DNA from: Schaalia sp. Marseille-Q2122
GTDB taxonomy: Bacteria > Actinomycetota > Actinomycetes > Actinomycetales > Actinomycetaceae
DNA: 64,000 nucleotides
Direction: 5' to 3'
Assembly: GCF_903645355.1 (NCBI RefSeq)
Contig: NZ_CAHJXR010000004.1
Location: forward strand, 1-64,000
Position numbers and translations under genes: made by a program. Numbering within the stretch: the stretch's first letter is position 1; the number at the start of each line of letters is the position of its first letter. Positions 3,765 to 49,412 of the stretch are shown in pieces. The notes below the pieces were generated by a model. It was not told the origin of the DNA. It ran no database searches and saw nothing but the letters and a program-made list of their open reading frames with translations.

Positions 3765-3773
3765 GCGTCACAA

Positions 3774-3820: not shown

Positions 3821-3874
3821 CTGACGCACATGCGTGCGCTGAGGGAATATCCCTCGTTACGGCGATCTTATCGG

Positions 3875-4876: not shown

Positions 4877-4950
4877 AAATACTAGTCTCTCATGCACAGC
4901 CGTGCAGGTGAAGCGAATTTTTGTGCGGTCGCTGTGATAATTGCAATGAA

Positions 4951-4968
4951 GTCGCAACACTCTGCGAC
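4951..4968. promoter_or_regulatory. Candidate operator between the SorC regulator and glpF
   Basis: A perfect dyad GTCGCA-N6-TGCGAC in the 143-bp divergent intergenic region, 52 bases before the glpF start. A related half site (TTGCAAT) lies just upstream. It is the best dyad in the region, hence a candidate binding site for the divergently encoded regulator. Confidence 0.4.
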
Positions 4969-5019
4969 TATCGTCCCAGATCTCGGTGCAATGGAGCTCC
5001 GAAGAAAGGTACAAGTACA

Positions 5020-5805: not shown

Positions 5806-5814
5806 TCTCCCATC

Positions 5815-5852
5815 GTTTCGGGGTGCAGCACACCTAAGCTGCACCCCGAAAC
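5815..5852 (+). terminator. Hairpin between glpF and glpK
   Basis: A perfect 15-bp stem (5815-5829 with 5838-5852) and 8-base loop, without a T run. As in the PTS operon, it looks like an intercistronic stability or attenuation element rather than a full stop. Confidence 0.5.
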
Positions 5853-5903
5853 CGCCACCACGCATCCATCCCCCCAATTCACAAAGAAGTGAAAGGACAA
5901 CAC

Positions 5904-7424
5904 ATGTCTGATCAGAAGTTCGTCATGGCCATCGACCAGGGCACCACCTCGTCCCGCGCCATCATCTTCAACCACGCAGGCGAAATTGTCTCCATCGGCC
6001 AGCAGGAATTCACTCAGATCTTCCCCAACCCCGGCTGGGTCGAACATGACCCCATGGAAATCTGGGAATCCGTCCGAGCCGTCGTCGCCGACGCCCTCCA
6101 CAAGGCAGACATCAACCGCCACTCCCTTGCAGCCATCGGTATCACCAACCAGCGTGAAACCACCGTCGTGTGGGATAAGACCACCGGCGAACCGGTCTAT
6201 AACGCCATCGTCTGGCAAGACACCCGCACCGCCGCCATCACCCGCGAACTCGCAGGCGATAAGGGCATGGACCGCTACCGCGACATCTGCGGCCTGCCCC
6301 TGGCCACCTACTTCTCCGGCCCCAAGGTCAAGTGGATCCTCGACAACGTCGAAGGCGCCCGCGAAAAGGCAGAAGCAGGCGACCTGCTCTTCGGCAACAC
6401 CGACTCCTGGGTCGTGTGGAACCTGACCGGCGGCGTCAACGGCGGCGTTCACGTCACCGACGTCACCAACGCCTCGCGCACCATGCTCATGGACCTGCGC
6501 ACCCTGCAATGGCGTGAAGACATCTGCGCCGACATGGGCATCCCCATGTCCATGCTCCCCGCCATCAAGTCCTCCGCGGAGGTCTACGGCTACGGCGCAC
6601 CGAACTCACTGCTCATCGAAACCCCCGTGTCAGCCATCCTCGGCGACCAGCAGGCCGCAACCTTCGGCCAAGCCTGCTTCTCTAAGGGCATGGCAAAGAA
6701 CACCTACGGCACTGGCTGCTTCATGCTGATGAACACCGGCACCGAACCGGTATTCTCTGAGAACGGTCTGCTCACCACCGTGTGCTACAAGATCGGTGAA
6801 GAGGCAGCCGTCTACGCTCTCGAAGGCTCGATTGCCGTCGCGGGCTCTCTGGTCCAGTGGCTGCGCGACAACCTCGGCATGATCGAAAAGTCCTCCGACG
6901 TGCGCAAGCTGGCAGAAACCGTGGAAGACAACGGTGGCGTCTACTTCGTCCCCGCCTTCTCCGGCCTCTTCGCCCCTTACTGGCGTGATGACGCCCGCGG
7001 CGCCATCGTGGGCCTGACCCGCTACGTCAACAAGGGCCACATCGCGCGCGCCGTCGAAGAATCCACTGCCTTCCAGTCCCGCGAAGTCCTTGACGCCATG
7101 AATGCCGACTCCGGCGTGCCCCTGACCGAACTCAAGGTCGATGGCGGTATGACCCACGATGACCTCGTCATGCAATTCCAGGCCGACCTGTGCGGCGTGG
7201 ACGTTGTGCGACCGAAGGTCATCGAAACCACCGCCCTCGGCGCAGCCTACGCAGCAGGCATTGCCGTCGGCTTCTGGTCGGGTACCGAGGATGTCATCGC
7301 CAACTGGCAAGAAGGTAAGCGCTGGACCCCAGCAATGGATCAAGCTGAGGTCGACCGCACCTACCGCCTGTGGAAGAAGGCCGTGACTCGTACCTTCGAC
7401 TGGGTCGATGAGGACGTCAAGTAA
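5904..7424 (+). CDS. glpK: Glycerol kinase
   Basis: Phosphorylates glycerol to sn-glycerol 3-phosphate with ATP, trapping what GlpF admits. The 506 residues match the FGGY kinase length. Visible signatures are DQGTTSSR at about 11-18, [10 protein letters not shown], and the C-terminal [14 protein letters not shown] and DGGMTHDD blocks. ATG 5904 has AAAGGA 6 bases upstream; an in-frame GTG at 5889 lacks this. No HPr-phosphorylated histidine of the Firmicute type is evident. Confidence 0.97.
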
Positions 7425-7456
7425 CACCTTCTGACCCCATAGCGATCTGCAGCTCA

Positions 7457-7486
7457 GGCGCCGCCAGCATCCCCGCTGGCGGCGCC
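7457..7486 (+). terminator. Terminator-like hairpin after glpK
   Basis: A perfect 12-bp GC-rich stem (7457-7468 with 7475-7486) and 6-base loop, 32 bases after the stop codon. No clear T run. Confidence 0.6.
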
Positions 7487-7732
7487 GCTGTGTCGGGGGT
7501 GCATTGCTGCTTTAATCTCGCACTGCTGTGTTAGTTGTCTGTCGCAAGAACGGCGGGTCTGGTTAGCCGCTGCGCTGGGCCGTGCGCGTCCACTCGCCTC
7601 CGCTACGCTTCGGCTCCCATGCCGAAGCGTGCCGCAAGCGGCCCGCCCGCTCGGCCTTTGTGTTTCCCAAAGGCCCCGAAGCCCGACCATGCCCTGCCCT
7701 GCTGTCGTCCTCGCCGGGCCCTTTTGCTCAGG

Positions 7733-7800
7733 TTTGCACACTGCGTTGTGGTTTTCACACCGCATAGGCCCCAGAAATTGCAACGCCGCTCCCATATTGC
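7733..7800 (+). repeat. Dispersed intergenic repeat, copy A
   Basis: Aligns with 14378-14445 at roughly four bases in five. Shared blocks include TTTGCACAC, GCGTTGT, CACCGCATAG and CTCCCATA. Both copies lie in long non-coding gaps and are followed by 19-bp periodic sequence. Confidence 0.65.
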
Positions 7801-7835
7801 TCGCCTGCCGGGGCGGGTGGAGGCGGTCATAGTGG

Positions 7836-7911
7836 TTGGTATGGCTGAGCGTCGTTGGTATGGGTTAGCGCTATTGGTGTGGTTGAGTGCCTTGGGTAGG
7901 TGGTGTGCCAT
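7836..7911 (+). repeat. Degenerate 19-bp tandem repeat
   Basis: Four consecutive 19-bp units starting at 7836, 7855, 7874 and 7893. The first three read TTGGTATGGCTGAGCGTCG, TTGGTATGGGTTAGCGCTA and TTGGTGTGGTTGAGTGCCT; the fourth is more diverged. No coding frame supports them. Confidence 0.6.
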
Positions 7912-8109
7912 GTACCGATGGCGCTGAGGCGTACCGTAGCCGGGGGAGGGTTCCTGTGACAGTGACGCCGCTAGGCGCGCAGTGCCTGCGGCGCGGCTGG
8001 GCATATGAGCCGGAGCGAAGCGCAGGTGAATGGGCACAGGCGCTGCGCGCCTGGTGCCAGCGGCGCTGCTGGAAGTCTGCGCGTACAAGACCCCGCTGAG
8101 CATAGAAAA

Positions 8110-8165
8110 TCCCCCGGACCGCCAGTGAAAGCTGGCAACGCGCACAGCTCAAGCGACCCGGGGGA
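8110..8165 (-). terminator. Terminator of the NYN-domain gene
   Basis: On the minus strand TCCCCCGG (8158-8165) pairs with CCGGGGGA (8110-8117) and is followed by TTTT. An inner GCCAG/CTGGC stem lies in the loop. Confidence 0.7.
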
Positions 8166-8188
8166 CTCTTATGCAGCCTCGTGAAGAC

Positions 8189-8755
8189 TCAGAGGAACTC
8201 GAAGGGGTTGAAGTCCTCGACGTCGATGATGCGGATCCTGGGCAGGGTGACCTGGAAAGCATGAACGTCATACTCAAGGTCAATAACTTCCAGGCCCTCG
8301 TCAATCAGCTCTTGCAGCTGAGTGGAAAGAAACTCGCGGAAACACAGGACCGCGACCTTGCGCCCCTGTGCCAAGAGCTCCTGAATCTGAGGAACGAAGT
8401 CACCATCATGGCTGGCCAGGATGACCGAAGCTCCCTCAATCTCACTAATGGCCTCCAGGGTCTTTTGAATACCCAGGTCAACGACCTTCAGGTCCGCAGG
8501 ACCCGACAGGGGAATCGCCCGATAGTCCATCGCATTGAGAGCCTGAACGAAGCCCATCGGCAGGTAGCCATTGGAGCCATTGAGGAAGAAAAGTCCTCGT
8601 GCCTGCTCGCCCCACTGCTCTGAAGCAGCCTGAAGAACACGGTCCCAGCGAGGGCGTTCCTCAGGATTAGGGCGGCGGTCAAGGACGGACAAGCCTAAGG
8701 TGGCATCAATATTTTCGCCATCAATTACCAGGTAAGTAGTTTCCATACCTTCCAC
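8189..8755 (-). CDS. NYN-domain (PIN-like) putative ribonuclease
   Basis: A 188-residue protein of the NYN/LabA-like PIN superfamily, whose characterised members are metal-dependent RNases. Candidate acidic residues are Asp12 in VIDGEN, Asp93 in VVDLGI and Asp117/Asp119 in SHDGDF, the expected order. No extra domain is present. GTG 8755 is taken; ATG 8746, three codons later, is equally plausible. A TATAAA box lies about 20 bases before the start on the minus strand, which would give a very short or absent leader. It has its own terminator and is separate from the pspA unit. The substrate is unknown. Confidence 0.8.
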   Translation of the reverse strand: MEGMETTYLVIDGENIDATLGLSVLDRRPNPEERPRWDRVLQAASEQWGEQARGLFFLNGSNGYLPMGFVQALNAMDYRAIPLSGPADLKVVDLGIQKTLEAISEIEGASVILASHDGDFVPQIQELLAQGRKVAVLCFREFLSTQLQELIDEGLEVIDLEYDVHAFQVTLPRIRIIDVEDFNPFEFL

Positions 8756-8810
8756 CCTAGCCGCTGGGAAGAATTTATATGCGGCATTGGAAAAGTTTCT
8801 CGAAACTAAA

Positions 8811-8846
8811 GAAGGCGATAGGGCTGTGATAAGTCCTATCGCCTTC
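8811..8846 (-). terminator. Intrinsic terminator after pspA
   Basis: A perfect 12-bp stem (8811-8822 with 8835-8846); on the minus strand the stem is followed by TTTAGTTT. It ends the coiled-coil/pspA transcript before the NYN gene. Confidence 0.8.
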
Positions 8847-8870
8847 TCAAAGAGTGAAAAACTCGGGGAA

Positions 8871-9587
8871 TCAGCCCTTCGCCTTCAATGCAGCAAACCT
8901 TGCCTCAAGGTCAACATCGACCTCGTCGCTCTCCAGCTCAGCGAACTGATCCTCCAGGGATGCGGCGGCAATCTCAGCCTGGCCCTGAGCCATGGCCTCA
9001 ACACGACGCACACGATCCTCAAAACGAGACAGCTCCGAAGTTGGATCCATGACATTGATCGAACCAATAGCATCATTAAGCTTGGTCTGAGCCTCGGCAC
9101 TGCGCTGGCGAGCAACCAACTCATCTCGCTTGGACTTGAGCTGCTCAAGCTTATCCTTCATGGTGGCCAGGCCGCTCTTGAGCTTGTCTGCCATCGCATT
9201 CTGCGCCTCAATACGAGGCTTAGCGTCAGCGGCTTCACGCTCGTACTGCAGCTGCTTGCCCAGAGCGACGCGGGCAAGGCCATCCCACTTGTCGGCGCCA
9301 GCAGCGTCACCGGAGACGCGCAGTTGCTCAGCCTTGTCGGAAGCTGCCTGAGCTTTGCGGCCCCAATCAGCTGCCGTCGCGACATCCTCCTCGTAATCCT
9401 TCTCAGCCAGACGCAGATCGCCAACAGTCTGCGCGATAGCGTTCTGAGCTTCAACGATGGAGTTGGTGTAGTCGCGGATCAGCTGATCCAGCATCTTCTG
9501 AGGGTCTTCGGCACGATCAAGAAGCGCATTGATATTGGCCTTAGCCAACTGTGCTACGCGGCCGAAAATTGACTGCTTCTCTGCCAT
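8871..9587 (-). CDS. pspA: PspA/IM30 family membrane-stress protein
   Basis: Peripheral membrane protein of the PspA/Vipp1 (ESCRT-III-like) family that supports the inner face of the membrane under envelope stress. The 238 residues are almost wholly helical coiled coil, with the family start (FGRVAQLAKANINALLDRAEDP) near residue 7. ATG 9587 follows GGAGGA. It lies 107 bases downstream of a membrane-anchored coiled-coil gene and ends at a strong terminator, so the two probably form one unit. No PspBC or PspF partner is visible. Confidence 0.9.
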   Translation of the reverse strand: MAEKQSIFGRVAQLAKANINALLDRAEDPQKMLDQLIRDYTNSIVEAQNAIAQTVGDLRLAEKDYEEDVATAADWGRKAQAASDKAEQLRVSGDAAGADKWDGLARVALGKQLQYEREAADAKPRIEAQNAMADKLKSGLATMKDKLEQLKSKRDELVARQRSAEAQTKLNDAIGSINVMDPTSELSRFEDRVRRVEAMAQGQAEIAAASLEDQFAELESDEVDVDLEARFAALKAKG

Positions 9588-9694
9588 GGTTTCCTCCAAT
9601 AAAAGGCTAGGAACGAACCGTCGTTATCAACATTAGTGTGAAATCAAGGCATGAGCCCAGCGAAACCACCCAAAGCCTGAAAAGCTGACGCCAC

Positions 9695-33147: not shown

Positions 33148-34595
33148 AGTACTTCTCCGTCCTCTTCGCAGGCTCACTCATCACCTCGATCGGCTCAGGC
33201 ATGAGCGCCTTCGCGCTCGCGGCCTGGATCTTCACCCAGCAGGGGAGCGCCGCCAGCGTCGGCCTGCTGCAAATGTGCGCTTTCGCGCCGATGGTGCTGC
33301 TCGCACCGATTGCTGGCACCTGCGCGGACCGCTACGACCGGCGCGCACTCATGATCGCCGGAGACGGCGGCTCAATCCTGGGGCTGCTGCTCGTGCTGTG
33401 GGCGCTGAACGGGGGAGGGCTCGGGGGTGAAGGCGAGCCGAGCGTGCCCTTGGTCTTGCTCGGCATCACCATCGCCTCGTCCCTGGCGGCCTTCACGGAA
33501 CCCGCACTGCGCGCAACGGTGTCTGACCTGCTCAAACCCGAAGAGTATGTGCGTGCCTCGGGCATGCTCCAACTCGCAGCGTCCTCAAAATTCCTCATCT
33601 CACCCGTGTTAGCGGCGCTCGTCATGACCGCCTCCTCCGTGCAGGTGGTGCTACTCATTGACGCGGCAACGGCCGTCGTCACCGTCGCCTGCACCCTCTA
33701 CGTCCGGCGCGGATTGACGAGGGCGACGCCGGTGGGGAGGCTGGGTGCAGCGCGGCAAGCAAGCAAGGCAGAGCAAGCAAGCAAGGCAGAGCAGGAAAGC
33801 ACAGCAGGGCAGGAAAGCACAGCAGGGCAGGAAAGCACAGCAGGGCAAGCAAGCAAGGCAGAGCAGGAAAGCGCAGCAGGGCAAGAAAGCAGCGACCGCC
33901 CCTCATTCCTGCGCGATCTCCTCAACTCCTGGCGCACCATCACCGCCTCCACGCAGGTCACAACCGTGGTGGCAATTATGGCCGCGCTGACCCTCGCCCT
34001 TGGAGTCATCCAAACCCTGCTCAAACCCATGCTGTTGCCGCACTACTCACCCAACCAGGTCGGCCTCGTTGAAAGCCTGGCCGCCTGCGGACTCATCGCC
34101 GGCGGAGCCCTTGTCGCAGTCCTGACCAACCCCCGCCCGGACTGGCTTCTACGCGTTGGGATCGGCGCGGTCAGCCTCGGCGCGCTACTTGTCGGACTGC
34201 GGCCGAGCATGTGGTGGGTGGCAGGCAGCTGCGCACTGGTTTTCGCAGCGCTCGCGGCCTGCAATGCGGGGGCCGAGGCCGGTGTGCGCGGCCTCATCCC
34301 CAATGAACAGCAGGGCCGCGCCTGGGGCAGCATCGGACTGATCACCCAGATGGGATTCCTCATCGCCTACGCCCTTGCCGGCCCCCTGGCCGACCACGTG
34401 TTCACGCCCGCGCTCATGGAGGGCGGCGCCCTCGTCCCCGCCCTCGGCTGGCTTTTTGACGTGGGACCAGGACGAGGCATCGGCCTGCTCATCAGCTGCG
34501 TTGGCATTGCGGTGGGCGTTTTGACGCTCACGGTCCCCCGCATCGATGCGGCACACGCCCACAACCCCGGCAACCAGGGAGGACACTCATGCTGA
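33144..34595 (+). CDS. MFS efflux transporter with a repeat-built central loop
   Basis: A 483-residue major facilitator protein, about 12 membrane segments, of the macrolide-efflux-like MFS_3 type (ADRYDRRALM in loop 2). The central cytoplasmic loop, residues about 205-251, consists of seven six-residue units (QASKAE or QESTAG types) plus a partial one. It is translationally coupled to the TetR gene and overlaps the permease gene by 7 bases. Drug or peptide export is likely; substrate unknown. Confidence 0.87.
   Translation: MKYFSVLFAGSLITSIGSGMSAFALAAWIFTQQGSAASVGLLQMCAFAPMVLLAPIAGTCADRYDRRALMIAGDGGSILGLLLVLWALNGGGLGGEGEPSVPLVLLGITIASSLAAFTEPALRATVSDLLKPEEYVRASGMLQLAASSKFLISPVLAALVMTASSVQVVLLIDAATAVVTVACTLYVRRGLTRATPVGRLGAARQASKAEQASKAEQESTAGQESTAGQESTAGQASKAEQESAAGQESSDRPSFLRDLLNSWRTITASTQVTTVVAIMAALTLALGVIQTLLKPMLLPHYSPNQVGLVESLAACGLIAGGALVAVLTNPRPDWLLRVGIGAVSLGALLVGLRPSMWWVAGSCALVFAALAACNAGAEAGVRGLIPNEQQGRAWGSIGLITQMGFLIAYALAGPLADHVFTPALMEGGALVPALGWLFDVGPGRGIGLLISCVGIAVGVLTLTVPRIDAAHAHNPGNQGGHSC
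33756..33896 (+). repeat. In-frame 18-bp minisatellite in the MFS gene
   Basis: Seven 18-bp units plus a partial one, alternating two versions that encode QASKAE and QESTAG. Copy number can change without breaking the frame. Confidence 0.85.
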
Positions 34596-37500
34596 CGCGT
34601 GTCCTGCGCGCCGACCTCGCCAGAAACCGGCTTGTCGCCACCGCCCTGACTGCCCTCATCGCAGTCGTCACCACCCTGGCTGCGGCCGCCACACTCATCA
34701 CCGCCCGCACCCTGCACACGATCGACCACTTCTTCGACACCAGCCTCGTGCCCAACGTCGTCCAGATGCACACCGGCGAACTCGACCCCGACCTCGTCAC
34801 ACAATGGGCCACAGGGCGTGAAGACATCGTTGACCACCAACTTCAACGCACCCTACCGATCCCCGGCCGCGCACTGTGGATCGCCGGAGTCAACCACAGT
34901 GACAGCGTCCTCGAACCCGCAGCCGTCACCTCGCCGGAACGCTTCGACCTGCTGCTGGGCGAGGACGGGCAGGTGGTGGCCCCCGAACCCGGACAGATCG
35001 CCCTGCCCGTGCACTACCTGGCAGCCGGGCAGGCCGCGCTCGGCGACGAGGTGATCATCCAAACTGGCGCAACCCAGCTGCATCTGCGCGTCAGTGACTT
35101 CCTACGTGACGCGCAGATGAACCCCTCGCTGGTGACCTCCAAACGCATGGCCCTCCACCCGCAGGATTACGCGACGCTGAACGAGCACTACACCCCCGAA
35201 TACCTCATCGAGTTTCGTCTGGCTGAGGGCGCGTCGGGCAGTGACGTCATTGATGCGTATGTGGCCGCCGGGCTTCCCGCGAAAGGTATTGCCGTCACCG
35301 ACAGTATCTTTTGGTTGATGAACGGCGTGAGCACCTTCGCCCTCGCCGCCATTGCCCTGATTGCCGCCGGGCTGCTGACCGTGGTGGCGTTGATTGCGCT
35401 GCGCCTGGCAGTCCTGTCGGCGTTGCAGCAAGAGATCGCGCCCCTGGCTGTACTGAGTGCAATCGGAGCTCCCTTTGTGCAGGTGCGCCGTATGTTCCTG
35501 GCGAAGTATCTGGCGATGGCGGCTGTGGGTGCGGCGCTGGGAGTGCTTCTGGCCTATCCGTTGAGCGCGTGGCTGGGGGCAAATATCACCCTCTACTTTG
35601 GCCATGCGCCCTCTTCAGTGCTGATCCTGGCCGCGCCCTTCGTGGTTGGAGCGCTGGTTGTGGCGGTGACTGTCGCGTTTTGCCTGCGGCTCCTACGAGG
35701 CCTGCGCCGCTGCAGCAGTGCGGAGCTGCTGAGAATGGGGGCGCAGGGGCAGGCTGGCAGTTCTAAGAAAGGACGAGGGCGCCGCCTGCTGGCCGGGTTT
35801 GGTCGTCAACGTCGAGCGGGTGAAGAGGAGCCTGGCAGGCTGAGGGTGAATGGCGGTGGCGAGGCTGGCGCAGGCGAGGACAGCGGTGGCGAGGCTGGCG
35901 CGAGCGACGAGGGCGCAGGCGCGGATGAAGCGGGGGTGCATGGTGCGGGGGCGCATGGTGCGGGGGCGCATGGTGCAGGGGTGCATGGTGCAGCAGAGCA
36001 CGCGCTCTCGTCACGGCTGATGTCCTCTTTTATGCCGCCATTTGTCTGGATGACGGTGCGCGTGTTGCGCTCGGCCACCAGCGTGATGCTGGCCCTGGTT
36101 GTGATGGGGGCTGGCATGACAGCCATCCTGCCCGCCGCCCTCACGCACACCATGAGCGATGCGCGCTTCGCCACCTATCTGGGTATCGGGCCAGCTGACC
36201 TGCGTATTGACCTGCGCCCGTCGGCGGAGGCGGATGCGTCTGCGGGAGCGGCCGACATCATGCAGCGCGCGCTCGCCACCCATGAACAGATCGATGCTTT
36301 CGGGATCTACCACTCCTACTCCGTGGAAGTGTCAGCTGCGGGTGCTGATGCCGAAAGCCTAGTGGTCGAGGTCGGTGACCATCAGCTGTTCCCCGTGGCC
36401 TACATCGAGGGCAATGCGCCCGCGCCACGAGAAGGCGCGATGCCAGGCCTATCCGCGCCACGAGAAGGCGCGATGCCAAACCTACCCGCGCCACGAGAAG
36501 GCGCGATGCCACACACGCCTGCACCCGACCGGGAAAGGCCGGACCGAGTGCTGGCCGCCAGTGATATGCCCGAGATTGCCCTGTCCTACTCGGCAGCCCG
36601 CGACCTTGACGTGAAGGTGGGAGACTCTCTGCAGCTCGATGATGGCGGCGAAAAGACATCGGATGGGCCTGCCGCTGCAGATGCTGTTTCGGCAAATCCC
36701 GCTGGGCCGAGAACCTTCACCGTGAGCGGCATCTACCAAGACCTCACCAATGGCGGTCGCAGCGGAAAAACCTACGAAGCGCTCGCAGGTGAGCCCCTCT
36801 GGCAGGTCGCATACGCTACCCTCACCCAACCTGCCGATGAGGCCCGAACCCAGGCGGTCGCAGACGACCTCGCCAAACAAATCCCTGGTGCAAAAGTCAC
36901 CGACATCAGCGGATACATTGCCCAAACGATGGGAGCATTGCACGCGCAGCTACGCATCGTCACCCTCGTCGCTGTGCTGAGCGCACTGGGCGTGATCGCC
37001 CTGATCACTCACCTGGTCACGCTGCTGGTGTGCGCGCGTGAGAGGCGCGATATTGAGGTGCTGGCGCGCATCGGCGCCTCACCCTCAGGGCTGCGCCGCT
37101 CCTACCAGGCGCGCATGATTGCTATTGGTGCGGCGGGCACACTGGGGGCTCTAGCATTCACCTTCACTATCGGGGAACGCCTGATCAGCCTGGCTTTTGG
37201 GCTACTTGGTGCGCCTGCCGTGGAACTCCTGCCCAATGTGTGGGTGACCGCGATTACAATTCCCGCAGCGATCATCCTTGCAATGTGGCTGGCCACGCGC
37301 ACCGCACTCAGTCATATTCCGCCACTGGCCCGCTCTGTTGTAGCACCCCGTACTGCGTTAGTGCCGAGAGTTGTTGCCTCGGATGAGCAAGCTTCCCAGG
37401 TTCGTGTTGCCAACCAGGCCGAATCTGCTGGGCCGATGCACCTCGCATCGCTCCGCCCCGCATTGCTCCGCCCTCGATCGGCTGCCGCTGAGGCCCCTTC

Positions 37501-38346: not shown

Positions 38347-38503
38347 AGCCTTCTTCTGGCTCGACCAGTGTCTTCGGGTTGCACGAGCAGCGTCTGGTCG
38401 ATCGAAAACGCCCGGGCCCGGGTGTTCCGGTGCAACGCGGGGGTACTGGTGCAACGCAGGCGCATGCGTGCAACGCAGGGACATCGTTGCGAGGCGGGGT
38501 AGC
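38347..38503. repeat. Mirror-image array of 19-bp units, locus 1
   Basis: Three 19-bp units (38347, 38366, 38385) lie left of a 24-bp palindromic core (38404-38427, centre CCCGGGCCCGGG). Four units of the opposite orientation (38428, 38447, 38466, 38485) lie right of it. Right units follow the pattern TGGTGCAACGCAGGCGCAT. Phase is exactly 19 throughout. It fills most of the gap between the ABC ATPase gene and the EcsC-like gene. Confidence 0.85.
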
Positions 38504-40801: not shown

Positions 40802-40819
40802 CACTGCCTCACCAGCCCA

Positions 40820-42997
40820 TCACCACGTCAACCATTCAGCAGGTACACGCGTGAAATACAAACCCTGCCACTCGTTCTCCCACAGCACCCCAAGACCACC
40901 ATCAGGCAAAGGCGCCATCGACTGATAGACGTGACGGCCAGGATTGAGCGTGCGCGCCAACGGCCACGTACACCCCTCGTCCTCCGACACGCGAATCACC
41001 CCATTGCCACGGAAGGGCAACAATTGGGAGGCATTCATGAAACAGAGTCGCCCATCATGGAGGCGAACAACATTGGGCTGACTAAAAATCTCCGGCACAT
41101 CAGGTAGCGGATCAAGCTCACCCCAGTGATGTCCGCCGTCCTCGCTGATAGCGCGCACCACCATGCCAGAGGGATGCTGGTTGCGCATGAGCATGAGAAT
41201 ACGCCCGCCGGACAGCTCCACAAGGGTTGCCTCGTAGGTCGCCAACGCGGGATCCTCCAAACGCGGGACACCCCCTGACGAGGCCGCCTCCCCACTGCCT
41301 GGATAGACGCCCAGCACACTGTGTCCGCGCACCCACGTGTCACCACCATCATCGGAATACACCGCAGCTGCACAAAAACCAACGCCCGCTTCGGAGGAAA
41401 CATACACCGGAATGACTAAACGCCCCGCATAAGGGCCCTGCTCAATCTGGATGCCAGTGCCGGGCCCAGTGCCAAGGAATACCATCCACTCTTCTTTCAC
41501 CTGATGATTCAGGTGCCGTAGTGCAGACCATGTGCGGCCCTCATCATCGCTGGTCACCATACACAGGTAAGAGGTCGGTAATGCGGGGGTGGTGCCGCCA
41601 AAATCTTCGCCGTCAGCGGGCTCGTAGGGCAGGAGGGCGCCCTCAGCATCCACCCCAATGCCGGGCACCGCATTAAACTGGCCAACGCCACCGGGGAAGT
41701 GGTCAATGAGGACAATCAGGCGACCGCGCTCGCGGTCATAGACACTGCACGAGTCAATGACGCTGGCCCCACTGACACCATGCCCTTCGGAGGGGATCAC
41801 GACCTGCATCGGCTCCCAGGTATCACCCCCATCGGGTGAGCGCCGAAGGACGAACTGAATGTGGTTGGGGGCATCATTGGGGATGCTCGTGCGCTGGTCG
41901 GCACCAGCAATGAGGGCGCCCGAGGGGAGGGCCAGAAGCGAGGGGATACGGTAGCTGGCCGCACCGTCCATTCCTCGATCAAAAAGCGCGCAGGTGCTGA
42001 TGGGGCGAACCTGCGACAAGCCCTTGATCTGCGCATCTGAAAGGGGATGATCGTAGATGGCGGCGCGTACAACCTCGCCGAAAAGACGCTGGCCGTTGAC
42101 ATCTTGGCCGATCACGACCTCGTAACCGCTGGAAGGCTCACCGGAACGCCCATAAGGTTCTTCGCTGGCTTCGCTGGTCGGCGCGCCGGCACGTCCATTA
42201 GCAAGCGTGGTGGGGGCAGTGTCTGCGAAAAACACCTGACCGGGAATGTGTGCCTGACGGAACCCGTCAATGTAGAGTTCCACCGCCCCCTGCCCGACCC
42301 GGATGGCGAGGTCATGCCACTGTCCTTCAGCCCACGCGCCCTCAATGGTGAAGGAACGCCACTGCCCGCCCGCCGTGCGGGCCGTGTAGGTGATCGCGCC
42401 CGTGTCGACGCGCACAGCAAGTAGCTCTGTAACCTCGCCCGAGGGGCCGCGCATCCCTGCTGACAGGATTGTGCCCGTCTGCCCGTGGCCCCGCGTGCGA
42501 AAGCGCGTCCACAGGGTCCCTTCTGTCAGGGGTGACACTCGGGCGGCATCAAAAGGCGCGAGGTGGTTGGCTGCAAACTCGACGAAGGGGCGAGGGCGCT
42601 GCGCGGAGGCGGCGATCTCGGCCTCGCTGAGTAGGTGGGGAAGAACGCGAAGGTCAGTGACCTCTCCCGCTACAGACTGCGGGGTGTGCCAAGCGTCAGC
42701 GCCGAGAGCGTGAAGGCCCACATCAACGGTGCCGCACATTGCCAGATAGCCGTCAATGAACAGGTGCGTGCCGCGTGCGCCAATGGTGATGGCTATATCG
42801 TGCCAGCGTCCGTCAATGACGGTTGTTGCGTCCTCACATTCGATGAGGCTTTCTCGTTGTGCGCAGTGGACTGTCCAGGTGGGGACCTCGTTGCGGATGG
42901 AAAAACTTGCTGATCCCAATGTGCCTTCGGCGCGCAGGAGTTCGCTGTCACCCCAAGCGCGGCAGCGGAAAAGCAGGGTTGTCGAGGTATCAGCCAT
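40820..42997 (-). CDS. Sialidase (GH33) with N-terminal LamG-like domains, no signal peptide
   Basis: A 725-residue exo-alpha-sialidase releasing sialic acid from glycans. Two LamG/concanavalin-like modules (about 1-150 and 165-330) precede the six-bladed catalytic domain. This starts with the arginine motif YRIPSLL and has Asp-box repeats RSPDGGDTW, TSDDEGRTW, YSDDGGDTW, SEDGGHHW and SEDEGCTW. ATG 42997 directly begins the LamG fold. There is no signal peptide, membrane anchor or sortase motif, so it may be cytoplasmic or leave by another route. Confidence 0.92.
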   Translation of the reverse strand: MADTSTTLLFRCRAWGDSELLRAEGTLGSASFSIRNEVPTWTVHCAQRESLIECEDATTVIDGRWHDIAITIGARGTHLFIDGYLAMCGTVDVGLHALGADAWHTPQSVAGEVTDLRVLPHLLSEAEIAASAQRPRPFVEFAANHLAPFDAARVSPLTEGTLWTRFRTRGHGQTGTILSAGMRGPSGEVTELLAVRVDTGAITYTARTAGGQWRSFTIEGAWAEGQWHDLAIRVGQGAVELYIDGFRQAHIPGQVFFADTAPTTLANGRAGAPTSEASEEPYGRSGEPSSGYEVVIGQDVNGQRLFGEVVRAAIYDHPLSDAQIKGLSQVRPISTCALFDRGMDGAASYRIPSLLALPSGALIAGADQRTSIPNDAPNHIQFVLRRSPDGGDTWEPMQVVIPSEGHGVSGASVIDSCSVYDRERGRLIVLIDHFPGGVGQFNAVPGIGVDAEGALLPYEPADGEDFGGTTPALPTSYLCMVTSDDEGRTWSALRHLNHQVKEEWMVFLGTGPGTGIQIEQGPYAGRLVIPVYVSSEAGVGFCAAAVYSDDGGDTWVRGHSVLGVYPGSGEAASSGGVPRLEDPALATYEATLVELSGGRILMLMRNQHPSGMVVRAISEDGGHHWGELDPLPDVPEIFSQPNVVRLHDGRLCFMNASQLLPFRGNGVIRVSEDEGCTWPLARTLNPGRHVYQSMAPLPDGGLGVLWENEWQGLYFTRVPAEWLTW

Positions 42998-43084
42998 GGG
43001 TGTCCTGAGTGTGGGGGTGTGGGGGGCGCGCGAGGCCGGACAGGTAATGCGTATCTGTTGACGATGGACCCGATGAGCTAAGGA

Positions 43085-43142
43085 TATCCAATAAGTGATA
43101 ACAATCGCGTCTAGCGACATCATGTATCCGATAAGTGCTGAC
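43085..43142 (-). promoter_or_regulatory. Paired direct repeats upstream of the sialidase gene
   Basis: TATCCAATAAGTGATAAC (43085-43102) and TATCCGATAAGTGCTGAC (43125-43142) differ at four of 18 positions and start exactly 40 bases apart, about four helical turns. A possible promoter, TTGTTA-N17-TTAGCT on the minus strand, overlaps the proximal copy. They are a likely binding pair for a sugar-responsive regulator not encoded nearby. The 42998-43251 gap has no gene. Confidence 0.6.
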
Positions 43143-43186
43143 GCTGATTCTCGGTGCGACCAAACCCGTTTACAGCGAAGAAGAGC

Positions 43187-43223
43187 ACCGATCGGGCGCC
43201 CCATAATGGGACGCCCGATCGGT
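43187..43223 (-). terminator. Terminator after the amylosucrase gene
   Basis: A 16-bp stem with one mismatch (43187-43202 with 43208-43223) and a 5-base loop, 28 bases past the stop. Confidence 0.75.
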
Positions 43224-43251
43224 ATCACCAGTGACCTTGAACAACAAAGAG

Positions 43252-45123
43252 CTAGTGAGCGACAAACCACAAGGCTTGATAGGGCTCAAGTGTCAGCTCG
43301 TGGACGTCAAGGTTGTAGTCGTAACCGCTGAGTGCTTCCCACGCTGAATGCCCCAGATGAGCGCGCAAGACTTCAGCGCTCAGACTCGTGCGATGTTCAC
43401 TGAGGTTGTAGACCTGCACCATGCGTCCTTCCGGATGATCGCGTAGGAGGATCAACAGATGTTGATGAGGGCTGGGGACAACTGTCGATTCAATACTTGC
43501 ATGCATATGCGGTAACGACCTTCGTACCCCAATGACATGCTGAAGCGCAGCATAGATCCGCCCACCAGGTGATGACGGGTCCTTTCGCGCCCGATCTGCT
43601 GCATCCCAGTCCATGACCGGTCGATGAACCCAGCGATTGTCGGCCGCATGATCGGGATCATCAGCGTAGGTGTAGTCATTGAGCATCCCAATCTCATCGC
43701 CCATATACAGCAAAGGAACGCCTGAAAAGCCAACTACCGCAGTCAAAAGCATGGTGATACGTCGCAGCGCAAGATCAATCTCATCAGCCTCTCCCTTTTC
43801 CAGGGCTATTTCCAAGCCTGCAAGTGACGCTAAAGAGCCAGAAATACGACGGTCGTCAGTGACTGGGTTGTACTGAAACACTAAGCCGCGTGCGAAAGAC
43901 CCTGGGTAGATGCCGCTGTAAAACTGAGAGAGGAAGCGTCGATGTTCCGGCCCTGATAAGCCGGTGTGAGCAGCATCCGCATCTGAGATGGCCCAACCAA
44001 TGTCGTCATGGCAGCGAATGTAGGCCCCCCACGTCGTGTTTGACGGCTTGGCGGGGAAAGCCCGGAGGGCATTCTCAAAAAGGCGGGTATCGCGGCTCGC
44101 TAAAGAACTCCATAGCTGGACCATGAAGGAATTGTGGTAGGCCAGGTCAGAAACCTTCCCCCAGTGCTCGCCTTTTCCGAGATAGGGTAAAAGCTGCTCG
44201 GGGCCAACAATCGCCTCAGCTTTGAATGCAGCACCGGGAGCGGCAATGCGAATAGCGGTGCGTAAGGCCTGCGTTAGGTGGTGGACTTCCTCCTCCCCCT
44301 GACACATGGTGCCTAAGCGTTTCCATATGAAGGCGATCGCATCAAGGCGAATCACTTCCACCCCGTGGTTAAGCAGGTTGAAAATAATGCTTAGATACTC
44401 ACAGAAGACGTTGGGGTTCGACCAGTTCACATCCCACTGGTAGGAGTTGAAAGTTGTCCACACCCACGCCTTGGCCTGCTCATCCCAGGTGAAGTTTCCT
44501 GGAGCGAAATCGGGGAAAATCTCAGGGAGATGCTGTTCGTACTTGTCGGGCATTGTCCGATCAGGGAACATCCAAAAGTAGTCGCGGTAGTGCTGTTCGC
44601 CTGCTCTGGCCTTTTGCGCCCACTCATGTTCGGCAGCAACATGGTTGAGGACAAGGTCGGCAACAAGGGCGATGCCGCGTGAACGCAGAGCTGCTGCAAG
44701 ATTGCTCAGATCCTCCATTGTCCCCAGATCAGAGCGCACCTTGTTGTAGTTCATCACCGCATAGCCGCCATCATTTTCATCAGGGCGAGGCTCAAGTAGG
44801 GGCATCAGGTGAAGGTAGGTGACACCCATGTCAGAAAGGTAGTCCACTCGCGCTTCGAGGCCTTTGAGTGTTCCTGCAAAGCGGTCGGTATAGGCCACGT
44901 ATCCCACACGCTCGGGGAGCTGCAGCCAGTCGGGTTGGAGAAGGCGCGCTTCGTCCAGAGCCTTGAGGTCGGCTGAACGTTCGCGGTAGGCGCGGTTGAT
45001 GATCCGAACAACGAGGTCATACACGCGCTCAGTCTCATCGCCGTAGACGGCATGAAGGCTGTTGCGGAGTTCTTCACCGTAGCGGGCATATCGCAGACGC
45101 AAGGTGGTATCAACACGGGTCAT
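43252..45123 (-). CDS. Amylosucrase-like GH13 enzyme
   Basis: Cytoplasmic GH13 enzyme, 623 residues, most like amylosucrase, which builds alpha-1,4-glucan from sucrose and releases fructose. The nucleophile is Asp261 in VIRLDAIAF and the acid/base Glu303 in KAEAIVG, 42 residues apart as in known amylosucrases; the third acid lies in IRCHDDIGW. The long N-terminal helical region (about 1-75) is also typical. ATG 45123 has AGGAACC upstream. No signal peptide. Its operon contains a sucrose-type symporter, which supports sucrose as the substrate. Sucrose hydrolase activity is an alternative. Confidence 0.87.
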
Positions 45124-45151
45124 GGTGGTTCCTGAGTGCGATCGGCGAGTT

Positions 45152-45655
45152 TTAGAGGGTGACATCTTCAGGGCGTGAAGGCTCGGGAGTGTCAGGGAGA
45201 GGGCGAATAATCAGCACATCGCAGGGGGCTTTTCCTGCGAGTTCTTGAGCAACCGTCCCAAGAAGCCTGCCTGCAATTGAACGGTCGCGTATGGCCCCCA
45301 TGACCAGGAGGTCAGCCTCGTGAGTCTCGATGGAATGCAGTAGTGAGGCTGCTGCGGGTCCGTCAATGAGTTCAGCGGCTTTGACTCGTGCGCCCGCTTT
45401 CTCAGCCTGAGCAACGGCCTCGTCGAGGGCCAGGGTGGCCGCTTCAACACCGGGCACCTGGTCGAAAGTGACTTCACCGCCAAGGGTGGCCTGATTCATC
45501 GCGTCAGTGCGCCGAGGTAGGGACGAGTAGGCGCAGACAATCACCAGGTCGGCGTCCTCAGCGACGGCCACATGGGCGGCCGAGGCGATGGTGGTCGGTG
45601 CCAGGGAGGAACCGTCAGTGCCAACAACAATCGTTGAGTAGGGCTTTTTCGTCAT
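45152..45655 (-). CDS. Single-domain universal stress protein
   Basis: A 167-residue UspA protein with the ATP-binding signature [21 protein letters not shown]. It sits between the sugar symporter (6-base gap) and the amylosucrase (28-base gap), all one direction. Placement inside a sugar operon is unusual and suggests a role tied to energy state during sugar use. Confidence 0.9.
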
Positions 45656-45661
45656 AGGAGA

Positions 45662-47077
45662 TCATCCTTCCGAGTGCTGTCCGATGGTGTCTTCACCGGA
45701 TTTTGAACGGATATCTTCGACGTCACGAACGATGGGAGGTTCTTTAATCCACAGCATTGCCAGAGCTGCACAGGCCAAGAGCACGGCGGCCGCGGTGATG
45801 GCGTTATGGGGATTGTCGCCTAGAACGTGCTTGTAGATCGGTCCGAAGGTGAGTGTCTGGATGAGCATGGGAATAACGATCATCATGTTGATGATTCCCA
45901 TGTACACGCCATAACGGGTTGAGGGAATGACGCGCACGGCCATGATGTAGGGAACGCCCATGATGGACGCCCAGGCGATACCGAGGCCAACGATGGGGAC
46001 GAAAAGAAGGTAGGGGTCGGTGATGTGCGGGAAAATACCAAGTCCGATTGCTGCAAGGAAGAGGCAGATGGCGTGGACCCACTTCGCACCGTGCTTTCGA
46101 GCGAGGCCCGCAAGAAGGAAGGCCACACAGAAGGTCACGATGTTGTAGAAGGCATTGATTGAGCCAGTTGTTGCCACTGCCTGTTCGTAAAGTTCTGGTT
46201 GTGCGGCGGTGTCCTCCACGCCGTAGACGCCTTTTGCGACTGACAGGGATACGTACTGCCAGTAGCAGTTCATCGCGTACCACTGGAAGAAGTAGACGAG
46301 GGCAAGTTTGCGCAGGGTGGGTGGCATGTCAACGATGGCGCTGCCGATGTCCTTGATGTATCCCATGAGGCCGCCACCGTTGGCTTTTTGTTCGGCGAGC
46401 TCGCGCAGTTCTGCTTCGCTGGGGGGAAGCTCTGGTGTGGTGAGGACGGAGATCATCACGGTGACGATGGAGCATACGGATCCGACGAGGAAGGCCGCGA
46501 ATACCCAGGTTGGTAGCTGGCCTGTCGTTCCGGGGAGGATCTTGGGGAAGCCCCAGATGCAGAGATTTGCCAGGGTGATGCCAAAGCCGCAGAAGAAGGA
46601 CTGGGCGAGGAAGCCCTTGGCTAGTTGCGAGGGAGGGAGGCGGTCGGAGATGAAGGCCCGGTAGGGTTCCATGGCCGTGTTGTTGGAGGCGTCAAGAGCC
46701 CATAGGAGCAGGACGGCCATCCATACGGCGCTCACCCATGGGAAGAGGGCGAGGCAGATGGAGCAGCCGATGGCGCCGATAATGAAGTAGGGGCGTCGTC
46801 GTCCCCACTTGGGGTGCCAGGTGCGGTCGGACATGGCGCCGACGAGGGGTTGGACGAGGAGGCCGGTGACGGGGCCTGCGAGGTTGAGCAGGGGCAGGTC
46901 TTCGGGGGAGGCGCCGAGCATCTGGTAGATGGGGTTGATGGCGGTTTGTTGCATGCCGAAGGAATACTGGATGCCGAAGAAACCGAGGTTCATGAGCAGG
47001 ATGTTCTTCATGCTCATCAGCGGTTTGGTGCGGACGATGGTGGTGGATGTTTCAGTTGCGGCGCTGCTCATCATCAT
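45662..47077 (-). CDS. MFS glycoside symporter, sucrose/maltose-like
   Basis: A 471-residue transporter of about 12 membrane segments resembling proton-coupled sucrose or maltose symporters. Features are SFGMQQTAINPIYQ in helix 1, GAMSDRTWHPKWGRRRPYF in loop 2 and DASNNTAMEPYRAFISD. It overlaps the upstream SRPBCC gene (ATGA). With amylosucrase downstream, import of sucrose followed by intracellular conversion is the simplest reading. Confidence 0.88.
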   Translation of the reverse strand: MMMSSAATETSTTIVRTKPLMSMKNILLMNLGFFGIQYSFGMQQTAINPIYQMLGASPEDLPLLNLAGPVTGLLVQPLVGAMSDRTWHPKWGRRRPYFIIGAIGCSICLALFPWVSAVWMAVLLLWALDASNNTAMEPYRAFISDRLPPSQLAKGFLAQSFFCGFGITLANLCIWGFPKILPGTTGQLPTWVFAAFLVGSVCSIVTVMISVLTTPELPPSEAELRELAEQKANGGGLMGYIKDIGSAIVDMPPTLRKLALVYFFQWYAMNCYWQYVSLSVAKGVYGVEDTAAQPELYEQAVATTGSINAFYNIVTFCVAFLLAGLARKHGAKWVHAICLFLAAIGLGIFPHITDPYLLFVPIVGLGIAWASIMGVPYIMAVRVIPSTRYGVYMGIINMMIVIPMLIQTLTFGPIYKHVLGDNPHNAITAAAVLLACAALAMLWIKEPPIVRDVEDIRSKSGEDTIGQHSEG

Positions 47078-47547
47078 GCCTTCCGCGTGTTGGTCTCGTT
47101 ACGGGCAAGGTATTCGTCGAGGCGGTTGAGTTCACGTTCCCATCCGCGGCAGTGCCAGTCGGCGATCCTGGCTTCGTAGGGGCCTTGGATGATGCGGACG
47201 AGGGTGCCGCCTCTGCCGGTGGCGACAAATTCGACGCGTTGTTCCATGGGCGTGGTGGGGTCTATCTCGGGATCGCCGGAGATCAGTTGCTGTTCGACGA
47301 AGACGTCGGGGCGGAAGAATTCGGTGAAGATGGACTCGGTGATGACGCGGTTGTTGGGGTCGTCATCAAGGACTTTGACGTGGTATTGGCGTCCGCCGAG
47401 TGTGAGTTCTGCGTGTGCATCCTCTACGTGGGTGCCGGGGCTTCCTCGCCATTGGGACATTTGTTCGGGGATGGTCCACGCGTCGAAGAGGACCTCGCGG
47501 GATTGGGTGAAGACTCGCTCGACAATAATCATGACGTCGGCAACCAT
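47074..47547 (-). CDS. SRPBCC (AHSA1-like) domain protein
   Basis: A 157-residue protein of the SRPBCC ligand-binding superfamily, AHSA1/activator-like type (TQSREVLFDAWTIPEQMSQW at the N-terminus, GRGGTLVRIIQGPYEA, GWERELNRLDEYL at the end). GGGAG precedes ATG 47547. First gene of the sugar operon. No known ligand; a regulatory role is possible but unsupported. Confidence 0.83.
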   Translation of the reverse strand: MVADVMIIVERVFTQSREVLFDAWTIPEQMSQWRGSPGTHVEDAHAELTLGGRQYHVKVLDDDPNNRVITESIFTEFFRPDVFVEQQLISGDPEIDPTTPMEQRVEFVATGRGGTLVRIIQGPYEARIADWHCRGWERELNRLDEYLARNETNTRKA

Positions 47548-47725
47548 GGGGTACTCCCTTGGTAGTGGCTCTGGCGGTTGGCAGGGTAAGACCCGGTAAT
47601 GGGCCCGGTAATAGGGCGGTGTGCTGGGTGCTGGGGTGTTGGACGAGGTCTCGTGGGTGGGGGCGTTCGGCACGAGTGCTGCGTGCCGGTGGTGGTGCAA
47701 TGTGTTTGGACGAGTGGTGAGGTAT

Positions 47726-47788
47726 TCCCACGCTATGCCTAGGGGCGTGGGATTTCGCGAGATAAGCAAGAGTATGAGAATCAGGCAA
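47726..47788 (-). promoter_or_regulatory. Candidate promoter and leader dyad of the sugar operon
   Basis: On the minus strand TTGCCT (47783-47788), a 17-base spacer and TTATCT (47760-47765). Just downstream TCCCACGC (47726-47733) and GCGTGGGA (47745-47752) form a perfect 8-bp dyad at the expected transcript start, either an operator or a 5-prime hairpin. The leader to the first gene would be about 205 bases. Confidence 0.5.
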
Positions 47789-48010
47789 AAATGGCGAAAT
47801 AGTGCGGAAAAGTCCGGGCGTGTTTGGTGGATGTCGCGATGGAGACAGAATGTCTTTAAAAAACGAAACCGTCATGTAGGACGTAGGTCATAAATGGCGT
47901 GCACGTTTGCGATGCGCATTGTGCTATTCGGCTGAATACTGGTTCAACACACTGCTTGAGGAGTGAGAGCCCGCAGCCCAGTTGAGGATCGTGTCTCTGA
48001 GTCAGAACCG

Positions 48011-48260
48011 GTGTCTCCTCTGGTTGCGCTTGTTGCTTCTAGTTCCACCTGTTGCGCCTGGTTGCACCTGTTGCTTCTGGTCGCTCGAAAGCGTCCGGGC
48101 CCGGCGCTTCCAGTGCAACACAAGAACATCAGTGCAACGCAGGAGCACTGGTGCGCGCGGGAACAGGGGTACTACGCCGAGGCGCCCTGCAACGCAGGAA
48201 CACTGGTGCAACGCCGAGGCGTCGGTCCAGCGCAGGAACACCGGTCCACGTCAGGGGCGC
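48011..48260. repeat. Mirror-image array of 19-bp units, locus 2
   Basis: Four 19-bp units (48011, 48030, 48049, 48068) precede a 24-bp core (48087-48110, centre CCGGGCCCGG). Eight units of opposite orientation follow (from 48111), one of them 17 bases long. Right units follow CAGTGCAACGCAGGAGCAC; left units such as CTGTTGCGCCTGGTTGCAC are roughly their reverse complement. The same architecture as 38347-38503. Confidence 0.88.
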
Positions 48261-48297
48261 GAGCACTGCGCCAATGTAAGAGCCTTGATAACAGTGT

Positions 48298-48337
48298 GCG
48301 GGTGTTTCGGGCGATAAATAGCGCCCGAAACACCCGC
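48298..48337 (-). terminator. Terminator hairpin after tdh
   Basis: A perfect 16-bp stem (48298-48313 with 48322-48337) and an AT-rich 8-base loop, 16 bases past the tdh stop. Confidence 0.8.
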
Positions 48338-48353
48338 AGTGCTTTGAAGCTGC

Positions 48354-49412
48354 TCAGCGCTCCCAGTCGATAATGACCTTGCCCGCGTTGCCCTGAGCGG
48401 CGGCGGCGAAAGCTTGCTCCCACTCCTCAGGCGCAAACTTGTGGGTAATAATCGAGCGCACCGAGTCACGCAGCTGCTCGGAGGTTTCGAGCATGTAGGT
48501 GGCCAGGTACCAGGTGTCGAACATTTCGCGCCCGTATACGCCCTTAATGGTGAGCATCCGGGTAATGACCTGGTTCCAGTTAATGGGGAAGGCTCCCTTG
48601 GGTAGGCCAAGCAGGGCCAGGGTTGCCCCGTGCGTGCAGTGCTCAATCAGTGAGGTCAGGCCACCGGGCGCTCCCGACATTTCCAGGCCCGCGTCGAAGC
48701 CTTCGCGGATCTCCAGGGCTTCCATGACCTCGGGCAGGGTCTGCTGGGTGATGTCAACGGCCACGTCAGCCCCGGCCGCGCGGGCCAGCTCCAGACGCGA
48801 GGGCATCATGTCGGTGATGACCACGTGGCGGGCACCTGCATGACGGGCCAGGGCAGCGCACATCACACCAATGGGGCCAGCGCCGGTAATAAGCACGTCC
48901 TGGCCGGTCATCTCAATCTGCTGGCAGGAGTGGACCGCATTCCCGAAGGGGTCAAACAGCGCGCCGAGGTCAGGGTCAATCGCCTCAGGCTGCACCCACA
49001 CATTCCCGGCAGGAACGACGACATAGTCGGCAAAACCCCCGTCACGGTTGACGCCGATGCCAATGGTGCGGATGCACATGTGCCGCCGCCCAGCGCGACA
49101 GTTGCGGCAGCGGCCGCAGACAATGTGGCCTTCAACGGACACGCGCTGGCCGACGTGCAGTTCGTCGCGGCCTCGACCTTCAGCAACGCCTCGGCCGATC
49201 GCGCAGATCTCGCCGTAGAACTCATGCCCCAAGGTCTGCGGGGGCGTCAAAGACCCTGGCGCGCCACCATCCCAGTTGAAGAGGTGAATGTCAGTGCCGC
49301 ACAGGCCTGCGCGCATGACGCGAATCTTGACTTCGCCAAAACCGGGTTCGGGTTCGGGAATCTCGCACAGTTCCAGGCCGGGGGCTGGGGCGGTTTTACG
49401 CAGTGCGCGCAC
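48354..49412 (-). CDS. tdh: L-threonine 3-dehydrogenase
   Basis: Zinc, NAD-dependent enzyme oxidising threonine to 2-amino-3-ketobutyrate, the substrate of Kbl. The 352 residues place Cys38, His63 and Glu64 exactly as in known Tdh proteins. The structural zinc cysteines are 99, 102, 105 and 113 (CGRCRNCRAGRRHMC), and the nucleotide loop is GAGPIG. GTG 49412. Single gene with its own terminator; kbl is 17 kb away on the same strand. Confidence 0.94.
   Translation of the reverse strand: MRALRKTAPAPGLELCEIPEPEPGFGEVKIRVMRAGLCGTDIHLFNWDGGAPGSLTPPQTLGHEFYGEICAIGRGVAEGRGRDELHVGQRVSVEGHIVCGRCRNCRAGRRHMCIRTIGIGVNRDGGFADYVVVPAGNVWVQPEAIDPDLGALFDPFGNAVHSCQQIEMTGQDVLITGAGPIGVMCAALARHAGARHVVITDMMPSRLELARAAGADVAVDITQQTLPEVMEALEIREGFDAGLEMSGAPGGLTSLIEHCTHGATLALLGLPKGAFPINWNQVITRMLTIKGVYGREMFDTWYLATYMLETSEQLRDSVRSIITHKFAPEEWEQAFAAAAQGNAGKVIIDWER

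Follow-up and report, generated by a model that had tools for sequence, protein, structure and literature searches.

The array at 48,011–48,260 of the window (the whole 64,000-nucleotide stretch of Schaalia sp. Marseille-Q2122 analysed here) belongs to a lineage-specific family of DNA elements that lie between genes; the family comprises 18 elements at 11 loci in Marseille-Q2122 and 7 elements in Schaalia canis OH770. The elements of this family share one design, in which the heptamer GTTGCAC (A) recurs each 19 bp towards a CCGGGCCCGG centre, with the innermost sites at ±16.5 bp and the innermost left site usually being a variant heptamer, GTCGMTC (B).

The left arm of the window array consists of four heptamers starting at 48023 (GTTGCGC), 48042 (GTTCCAC), 48061 (GTTGCAC), and 48080 (GTCGCTC) with strict 19-bp spacing, while the right arm consists of eight in the reverse orientation, starting at 48113, 48132, 48151, 48169, 48187, 48206, 48225, and 48244 (Table 1). 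The third, fourth, seventh, and eighth right-arm units are degenerate (2–3 mismatches), and 2 bp of phase are lost within this arm, where three units span 55 rather than 57 bp. The two innermost heptamers have their midpoints 16.5 bp from the centre of the element, one on each side, and the single innermost-left B site makes the element asymmetric. Twelve units, four left and eight right in opposite orientation, one step of 17 bp and a flip of orientation at a GC palindrome had been proposed in a sequence-only reading of this DNA; the unit starts confirm the numbers, the 2-bp phase loss fits the short step (or two steps of 18), and the arms indeed meet at the palindrome, with no wrong-way heptamer (up to one mismatch to GTTGCAC) found in the array. 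Tandem Repeats Finder independently reported 19-bp arrays at 48019–48081 and 48113–48214. Six phased heptamers (up to one mismatch) were counted in the array versus a maximum of three over 500 dinucleotide shuffles, and when the window was scanned in 270-bp stretches with a step of 90, the sole other high score (5) was the element at 38.4 kb. The left arm has an additional half-period of 9–10 bp, with lag identities of 0.49 and 0.47 versus 0.65 at lag 19; the autocorrelation at lags 9 and 10 corresponds to a weaker GTTGC sub-repeat of about 9.5 bp between the left-arm A heptamers. Since the 19-bp period is no codon multiple, the open reading frames running through the array do not represent a repeat protein. 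Tandem Repeats Finder also listed repeats at 7836–7895, 33754–33891, 35850–35993, and 36419–36511 of the window (periods 19, 18/36, 15, and 33), and the family model gave no match on these four.

Table 1. Coordinates of the window array, of related elements and of associated genes and CRISPR arrays
Feature	Location	Strand	Remark
Left arm, three A heptamers facing the centre	48023..48067	+	19-bp steps
B site CTGGTCGCTCG, innermost left unit	48077..48087	+	heptamer 48080-48086; GTCGMTC in most elements
Central palindrome CCGGGCCCGG	48095..48104	.	core 88% identical, 270 element pairs
Right arm, eight A-type units, reverse orientation, several degenerate	48113..48250	-	2 bp phase lost
AHSA1-type protein gene, neighbour	47074..47547	-	array upstream of gene
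L-threonine 3-dehydrogenase (tdh), neighbour	48354..49412	-	NF003808, 454 bits; array 3' of gene
20-bp inverted repeat	48297..48338	.	outside the array, directly 3' of tdh
Second element in the window	38378..38474	+	A 38378, B 38397, centre 38412-38421, right A 38430, 38449, 38468; between convergent genes; R1 77 bits
Marseille-Q2122 elements, contig C4 (the window's contig)	38.4, 48.1, 83.0 kb		R1
Marseille-Q2122 elements, contig C2	17.3, 18.3 kb		R1
Marseille-Q2122 elements, contig C6	75.5, 75.7, 162.1, 164.2 kb		R1
Marseille-Q2122 elements, contig C3	42.0, 79.8, 80.0, 82.0, 82.4, 318.1 kb		R1
Marseille-Q2122 element, contig C10	18.7 kb		R1
Marseille-Q2122 element, contig C7	26.3 kb		R1, weak (E 0.002)
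Marseille-Q2122 18th element, decayed, contig C7	21.85 kb		heptamer scan, missed by R1; 4.5 kb from 26.3-kb copy
Orthologous elements, S. canis and Marseille-Q2122	L091 = window 38.4 kb; L094 = C6 75 kb; L095 = C2; L096 = C7; L092 = C3 318 kb		
Orthologous element, S. canis and Marseille-Q2122	L090 = C3 42 kb		judged from one flanking gene (ABC transporter side)
DUF6318 and partner pairs	L011 5342-6900; L012 5228-6804; L230 12522-13993; L233 4023-5565		
S. canis CRISPR arrays	L231 7247-9493; L092 5307-6050; L233 3128-3832		10 + 6, 10 and 10 copies
Marseille-Q2122 CRISPR array	C3 31.6-37.6 kb (L230 ~3560-9590)		37-bp repeat, ~65 copies
Cas1 gene, Marseille-Q2122	L230 10242-11903		
Reverse transcriptase and Cas1 domains, S. 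canis	L231 4706-7027		two ORFs

A DNA search of the Marseille-Q2122 genome turned up additional copies of the array. The sequence model R1, built from an alignment of 16 copies (15 from Marseille-Q2122 and one from S. canis), retrieves 17 elements in the Marseille-Q2122 genome. The decayed 18th copy came from a heptamer scan over 25 sequences, which otherwise returned only already-known elements and itself missed the decayed S. canis copy Sc1 (L095). At the family level, 2 of 213 Actinomycetaceae genomes match at E up to 1e-4 under stricter filters, Marseille-Q2122 included, and the copy numbers (18 and 7) are small, so any host role is not a general one. Within the genus, 5 of 35 genomes match at E up to 0.01; single 18-bit matches (E of about 0.003) in G007, G015, and G017 were taken as chance, as was one at 186 kb of Marseille-Q2122 contig C5 (17.6 bits, E 0.005). 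The C7 copy scores similarly low (19.1 bits) and was retained, as S. canis conserves its geometry. A pattern scan over a wide range of genomes yielded 68 stretches, among which only the two S. canis contigs scored higher than 21 bits under the family model; the remaining 66 contain a short core match only and were taken as chance. Viral pattern searches for the element gave no match, phages queried with a C6 element gave none, and plasmids queried with the window array gave one weak 51-bp match in Paraburkholderia; a plasmid, phage, or viral origin was rejected on these searches.

Analysis of 24 aligned elements, with the 18th Marseille-Q2122 copy left out, indicated that the A heptamer GTTGCAC, the innermost left B heptamer GTCGMTC, the centre, and the right A heptamers at +16.5 and +35.5 are constant, while unit number and left ends vary and the outer units are often lost. 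The pattern G-T-x-G at −20 is present in 23 of the 24 elements and at the mirrored site in all 24; at −39 it is present in 20, and at the mirrored site in 19. Most elements combine a left-hand B with a right-hand A. The 83-kb element of the window's contig carries A on both sides, and the C10 and C7/Sc4 elements carry B on both sides, the centre of C7/Sc4 also being different. Mean pair identity was 0.843 for heptamers, 0.878 for the core, 0.476 for spacers, and 0.402 for flanks over 270 of 276 pairs (six pairs with more than 85% overall identity were dropped), the element centres being fitted partly on the heptamers, with 2 of 24 shifted by 1 bp. Comparison of four orthologous pairs, using one Marseille-Q2122 copy per locus, revealed identical bases at 94 of 112 heptamer, 80 of 160 spacer, and 57 of 168 flank positions; the heptamer-versus-spacer value of p=5e-9 serves as a guide only, because positions are non-independent and the centres were fitted with the heptamers' help. 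Near-identical flanks (40/42 and 39/42) make two further pairs, W38412/Sc2 and C7/Sc4, uninformative.

Plain microsatellite slippage, which presupposes no family, would agree with tandem 19-bp units that vary in number, but 25 elements share a common geometry with a flip of orientation, and the dispersed copies refute this explanation, which we consider scarcely credible. A transcribed RNA structure or terminator, in which the inverted arms pair as a hairpin, would suit the location at gene 3' ends, and the minus strand does fold better than shuffles (z −3.26). The plus strand does not (z −0.28), however, and in the consensus fold both sides change in just 1 of 13 pairs, with a covariation term of −0.22 kcal/mol. 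The terminator scan of the window array returned no terminator-like site, and Rfam gave nothing above the gathering score on 47300–48700 (best 21.5 bits versus 63). On folding, covariation, Rfam, and terminator scans, the RNA explanation was rejected as very improbable. Conserved short sites recur at fixed spacing, as in iteron- or centromere-type arrays, and given the near absence of covariation together with the conserved heptamers, their best reading is as protein sites in double-stranded DNA. The comparison speaks for DNA sites that bind a protein and are maintained by selection, and against RNA and slippage. The sequence-only reading had suggested a selected binding or structural function over slippage. 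Its binding part holds on comparative evidence, namely kept phase and orientation and heptamers and centre conserved well above spacers and flanks, also at orthologous positions, whereas a strand-structure role is not supported, with both sides changing in 1 of 13 consensus pairs. It had also named a lack of further copies, or of conserved phase and orientation, as what would speak against it; the Marseille-Q2122 genome holds 18 copies and one relative a further 7, and phase and orientation are kept.

Fifteen of the 18 Marseille-Q2122 elements, the window array among them, lie 3' of a gene. Six are located between convergent genes, nine have co-directional genes on their two sides, with a tRNA as one of the neighbours, and two (at 82.0 and 82.4 kb of C3) share a divergent interval; the C10 element was left out of these classes, its left neighbour having no gene call. 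No element lies inside a gene called on codon usage, and Sc1 is in contact with a 3' end. Of the seven S. canis elements, six occupy the orthologous intergenic interval of Marseille-Q2122, with the L092 element reversed relative to the genes in comparison with its C3 318-kb orthologue. Four loci with an element in Marseille-Q2122 are element-free in S. canis: tdh, which is the locus of the window array, asd–trx, feoA–metB, and tRNA-Ser–rbsK. The names truB, mdh, asd, trx, rbsK, feoA, ABC transporter, and RelBE are our presumptive assignments from the translations. Elsewhere in the window, positions 40817–45951 are 97% identical to S. canis and the neighbouring stretches mostly 75–89%, hinting at a recent transfer or recombination there.

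Genes carried as cargo, whether next to an element or enclosed by two, vary between the two species or are present in several copies. At C2, the genes for an antitoxin-like protein (PF07704, below cut-off) and for a Fic/Doc protein are flanked by two same-orientation elements, each held in a 155-bp direct repeat (93% identical), while the S. canis site has one decayed element and lacks the toxin-antitoxin genes. This pair lies at L009 5656–6221, between an L7/L12-domain gene and truB. At C7, 166-bp direct repeats (87% identical), with one element in each, enclose 4.3 kb (L100 403–4689) that encode a response regulator (PF00072 and GerE), a probable histidine kinase (HisKA_3 at 20 bits, under the 24-bit cut-off), and two lipoprotein-like proteins with no Pfam match; the orientation of the C7 elements is less certain owing to B on both sides. 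The S. canis C7 site is a single 166-bp copy without cargo, and its two Marseille-Q2122 matches overlap by exactly the 166-bp repeat. On the right, the C2 and C7 repeats both stop about 42 bp past the centre; on the left, they extend from it for about 112 bp (C2) and 124 bp (C7). At both loci, a gain in Marseille-Q2122 and a loss in S. canis would leave the same pattern.

DUF6318 and partner genes lie between elements at C3 (80–82 kb) and C6 (162–164 kb). The two longest blocks shared by these cassettes, which lie on either side of a diverged stretch, span 989 bp (96% identity) and 831 bp (99% identity). The homology ends about 270–290 bp left of one centre and about 50–60 bp right of the other, where the elements have their outer edges; within the right-hand C6 element, the left half reaches only about 90% identity. 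The DUF6318 and partner pair occurs in several copies, two of which, at two loci of one genome, are nearly identical. The S. canis C3 locus has the partner gene, no room for an adjacent DUF6318 gene, and no elements.

Three S. canis CRISPR arrays with a common leader and a 37-bp repeat each start about 356 bp from an element. In the Marseille-Q2122 C3 region, the Cas1 gene and a DUF6318 pair intervene between the CRISPR array and the element. Beyond the CRISPR array at S. canis locus C75 lies a DUF6318 pair that is 87–89% like the Marseille-Q2122 C3 one. What we take to be a RelBE-like toxin-antitoxin pair is located mid-CRISPR region in both species (L230 4424–4942 and L231 8149–8666). The reverse transcriptase and Cas1 ORFs of S. 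canis are suggestive of an RT-Cas1 system.

Direct-repeat sites flanking cargo, as in attC-type systems, were thus found at the C2, C3, C6, and C7 pairs, and the element may be the recognition site or end of mobile cassettes (attC-, pdif-, or transposon-end-like), with a trans-acting recombinase working between direct elements. The single, cargo-free S. canis elements at C2 and C7, direct repeats that contain the whole element, cassette homology that stops at outer element edges, the recurrent combination of CRISPR, leader, and element, and the four loci without an element in S. canis all agree with such a site, and the C7 cassette raises its probability slightly. Against it, Marseille-Q2122 and S. 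canis each encode two PF00589 tyrosine recombinases, which are presumably XerC and XerD, and an integron-type dedicated tyrosine integrase was rejected, none being found beyond these in the two genomes. Moreover, left ends are variable, a short target duplication was not seen, homology ends outside the centre and not within it, the heptamers remain conserved at fixed positions, and ordinary homologous recombination, or cargo loss in S. canis between direct repeats, yields an identical picture. We regard this explanation as possible yet doubtful, and as the main rival to the protein-bound array favoured below. A more novel reading, which we hold to be rather unlikely, would make the mirrored heptamer array, with usually one polarity-setting B, a cassette-border site of a class not described before, at which host machinery other than a dedicated tyrosine integrase inserts, copies, and removes chromosomal cargo (toxin-antitoxin pairs, regulator sets, CRISPR arrays with leader, and DUF6318 pairs), leaving a whole second element.

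A selfish small interspersed repeat (MITE- or REP-like) would have no host role, spread by insertion and local tandem duplication, and decay. The elements are indeed dispersed and intergenic, they include tandem duplicates spaced 184, 164, and 442 bp, some loci are occupied in Marseille-Q2122 and empty in S. canis, and some copies are decaying: the Sc1 core is 6/10 identical to C2a, and the left C7 copy escapes R1. Nevertheless, heptamers are differentially conserved at orthologous places, fixed termini are not apparent, and viral and phage queries gave no match, the single plasmid match being weak. With regard to MITE-type ends, unit number and left ends vary, most empty sites are too diverged for a target duplication to be read, and the 166-bp C7 repeat contains the element. 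The Y1 (RAYT-type, PF01797) transposase was absent from all 35 genus genomes in a search whose controls rang in 5 of 14; a REP/RAYT identity was rejected on this absence and on the scarcity of compensating changes in the pairing (1 of 13 pairs). Altogether, a selfish repeat appears improbable.

Plasmid iterons, par centromeres, KOPS-dif, Tn7/Mu/IS21 end arrays, and TraB clt combine fixed-spacing short sites with an oligomerising loader, and KOPS polarity flips at dif; to our knowledge, none of these is a dispersed mirrored array around CCGGGCCCGG. The dif sites are short bipartite XerC/XerD sites, and dif/pdif modules also carry toxin-antitoxin genes. In contrast to such a short bipartite site, the Schaalia element is an array of 95–250 bp. 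The Acinetobacter dif/pdif Xer modules resemble it in that chromosomal cassettes are bordered by repeated sites (PMC12907356). REP sequences are palindromic, carry a GT(A/G)G head, mostly exceed 100 copies and are linked to a Y1 transposase, and BIMEs bind gyrase and IHF (PMC2817692). The Schaalia element is similarly intergenic and dispersed, with a GC-rich palindrome and inverted modules, but differs in its phased heptamers, its 18 copies, and the lack of a Y1 transposase among the 35 genus genomes. The pneumococcal BOX, RUP, and SPRITE repeats are likewise small, intergenic, and nearly confined to close relatives, BOX having an internal module in variable numbers and SPRITE being enriched near gene 3' ends; BOX and RUP have terminal inverted repeats, target duplications, and predicted RNA structures (PMC3049150), whereas the Schaalia element shows hardly any covariation and its left ends are not fixed. 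The TAACTGA repeats of Beggiatoaceae are also intergenic heptamer arrays of patchy distribution, with no known binder, but they are direct, lie mostly just upstream of start codons, and have neither mirrored arms nor a palindrome (PMC4679880). The nearest kinds (REP/BIME, BOX/SPRITE, dif modules, and TAACTGA heptamers) share parts of the mirrored, phased design and not the design itself. Among the open-licence papers searched, no title or abstract start described an element of this design, in line with the sequence-only reading, which knew of no named element of this kind.

We tentatively favour, with a little less than even confidence, a putative two-armed protein-bound array as the primary function of the element, with the cassette borders being a consequence or a second function. 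Along these lines, we infer protein binding, oligomerisation, and a function for the resulting knot. A putative DNA-binding protein, probably an oligomerising dimer, would read GTTGCAC (A) or GTCGMTC (B), and two copies would sit at exactly mirrored ±16.5-bp positions around the GC palindrome. Further copies would load outwards in 19-bp steps, forming a nucleoprotein knot at the centre, and the single B site would give most elements a direction. The 9–10-bp sub-phase and the heptamer length would suit a protein of the ribbon-helix-helix type. The likeliest role for such a bound array would be to delimit or organise the chromosome where genes end, and the same arrays may be preferred boundaries at which toxin-antitoxin, two-component, DUF6318, and CRISPR cassettes are gained, copied, or lost. 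A recombination site accounts for the paired, cargo-enclosing copies no less well than a border role does.

Should the arrays be bound in vivo, they would reveal a new sequence-specific DNA-binding system in a narrow Schaalia lineage, with an exact, readable code of heptamer, 19-bp step, ±16.5-bp position, and usually one B site. If the link to cargo is causal, CRISPR arrays with their leader and toxin-antitoxin, regulator, and lipoprotein genes may be movable or copyable between chromosomal places without an integron-type tyrosine integrase.
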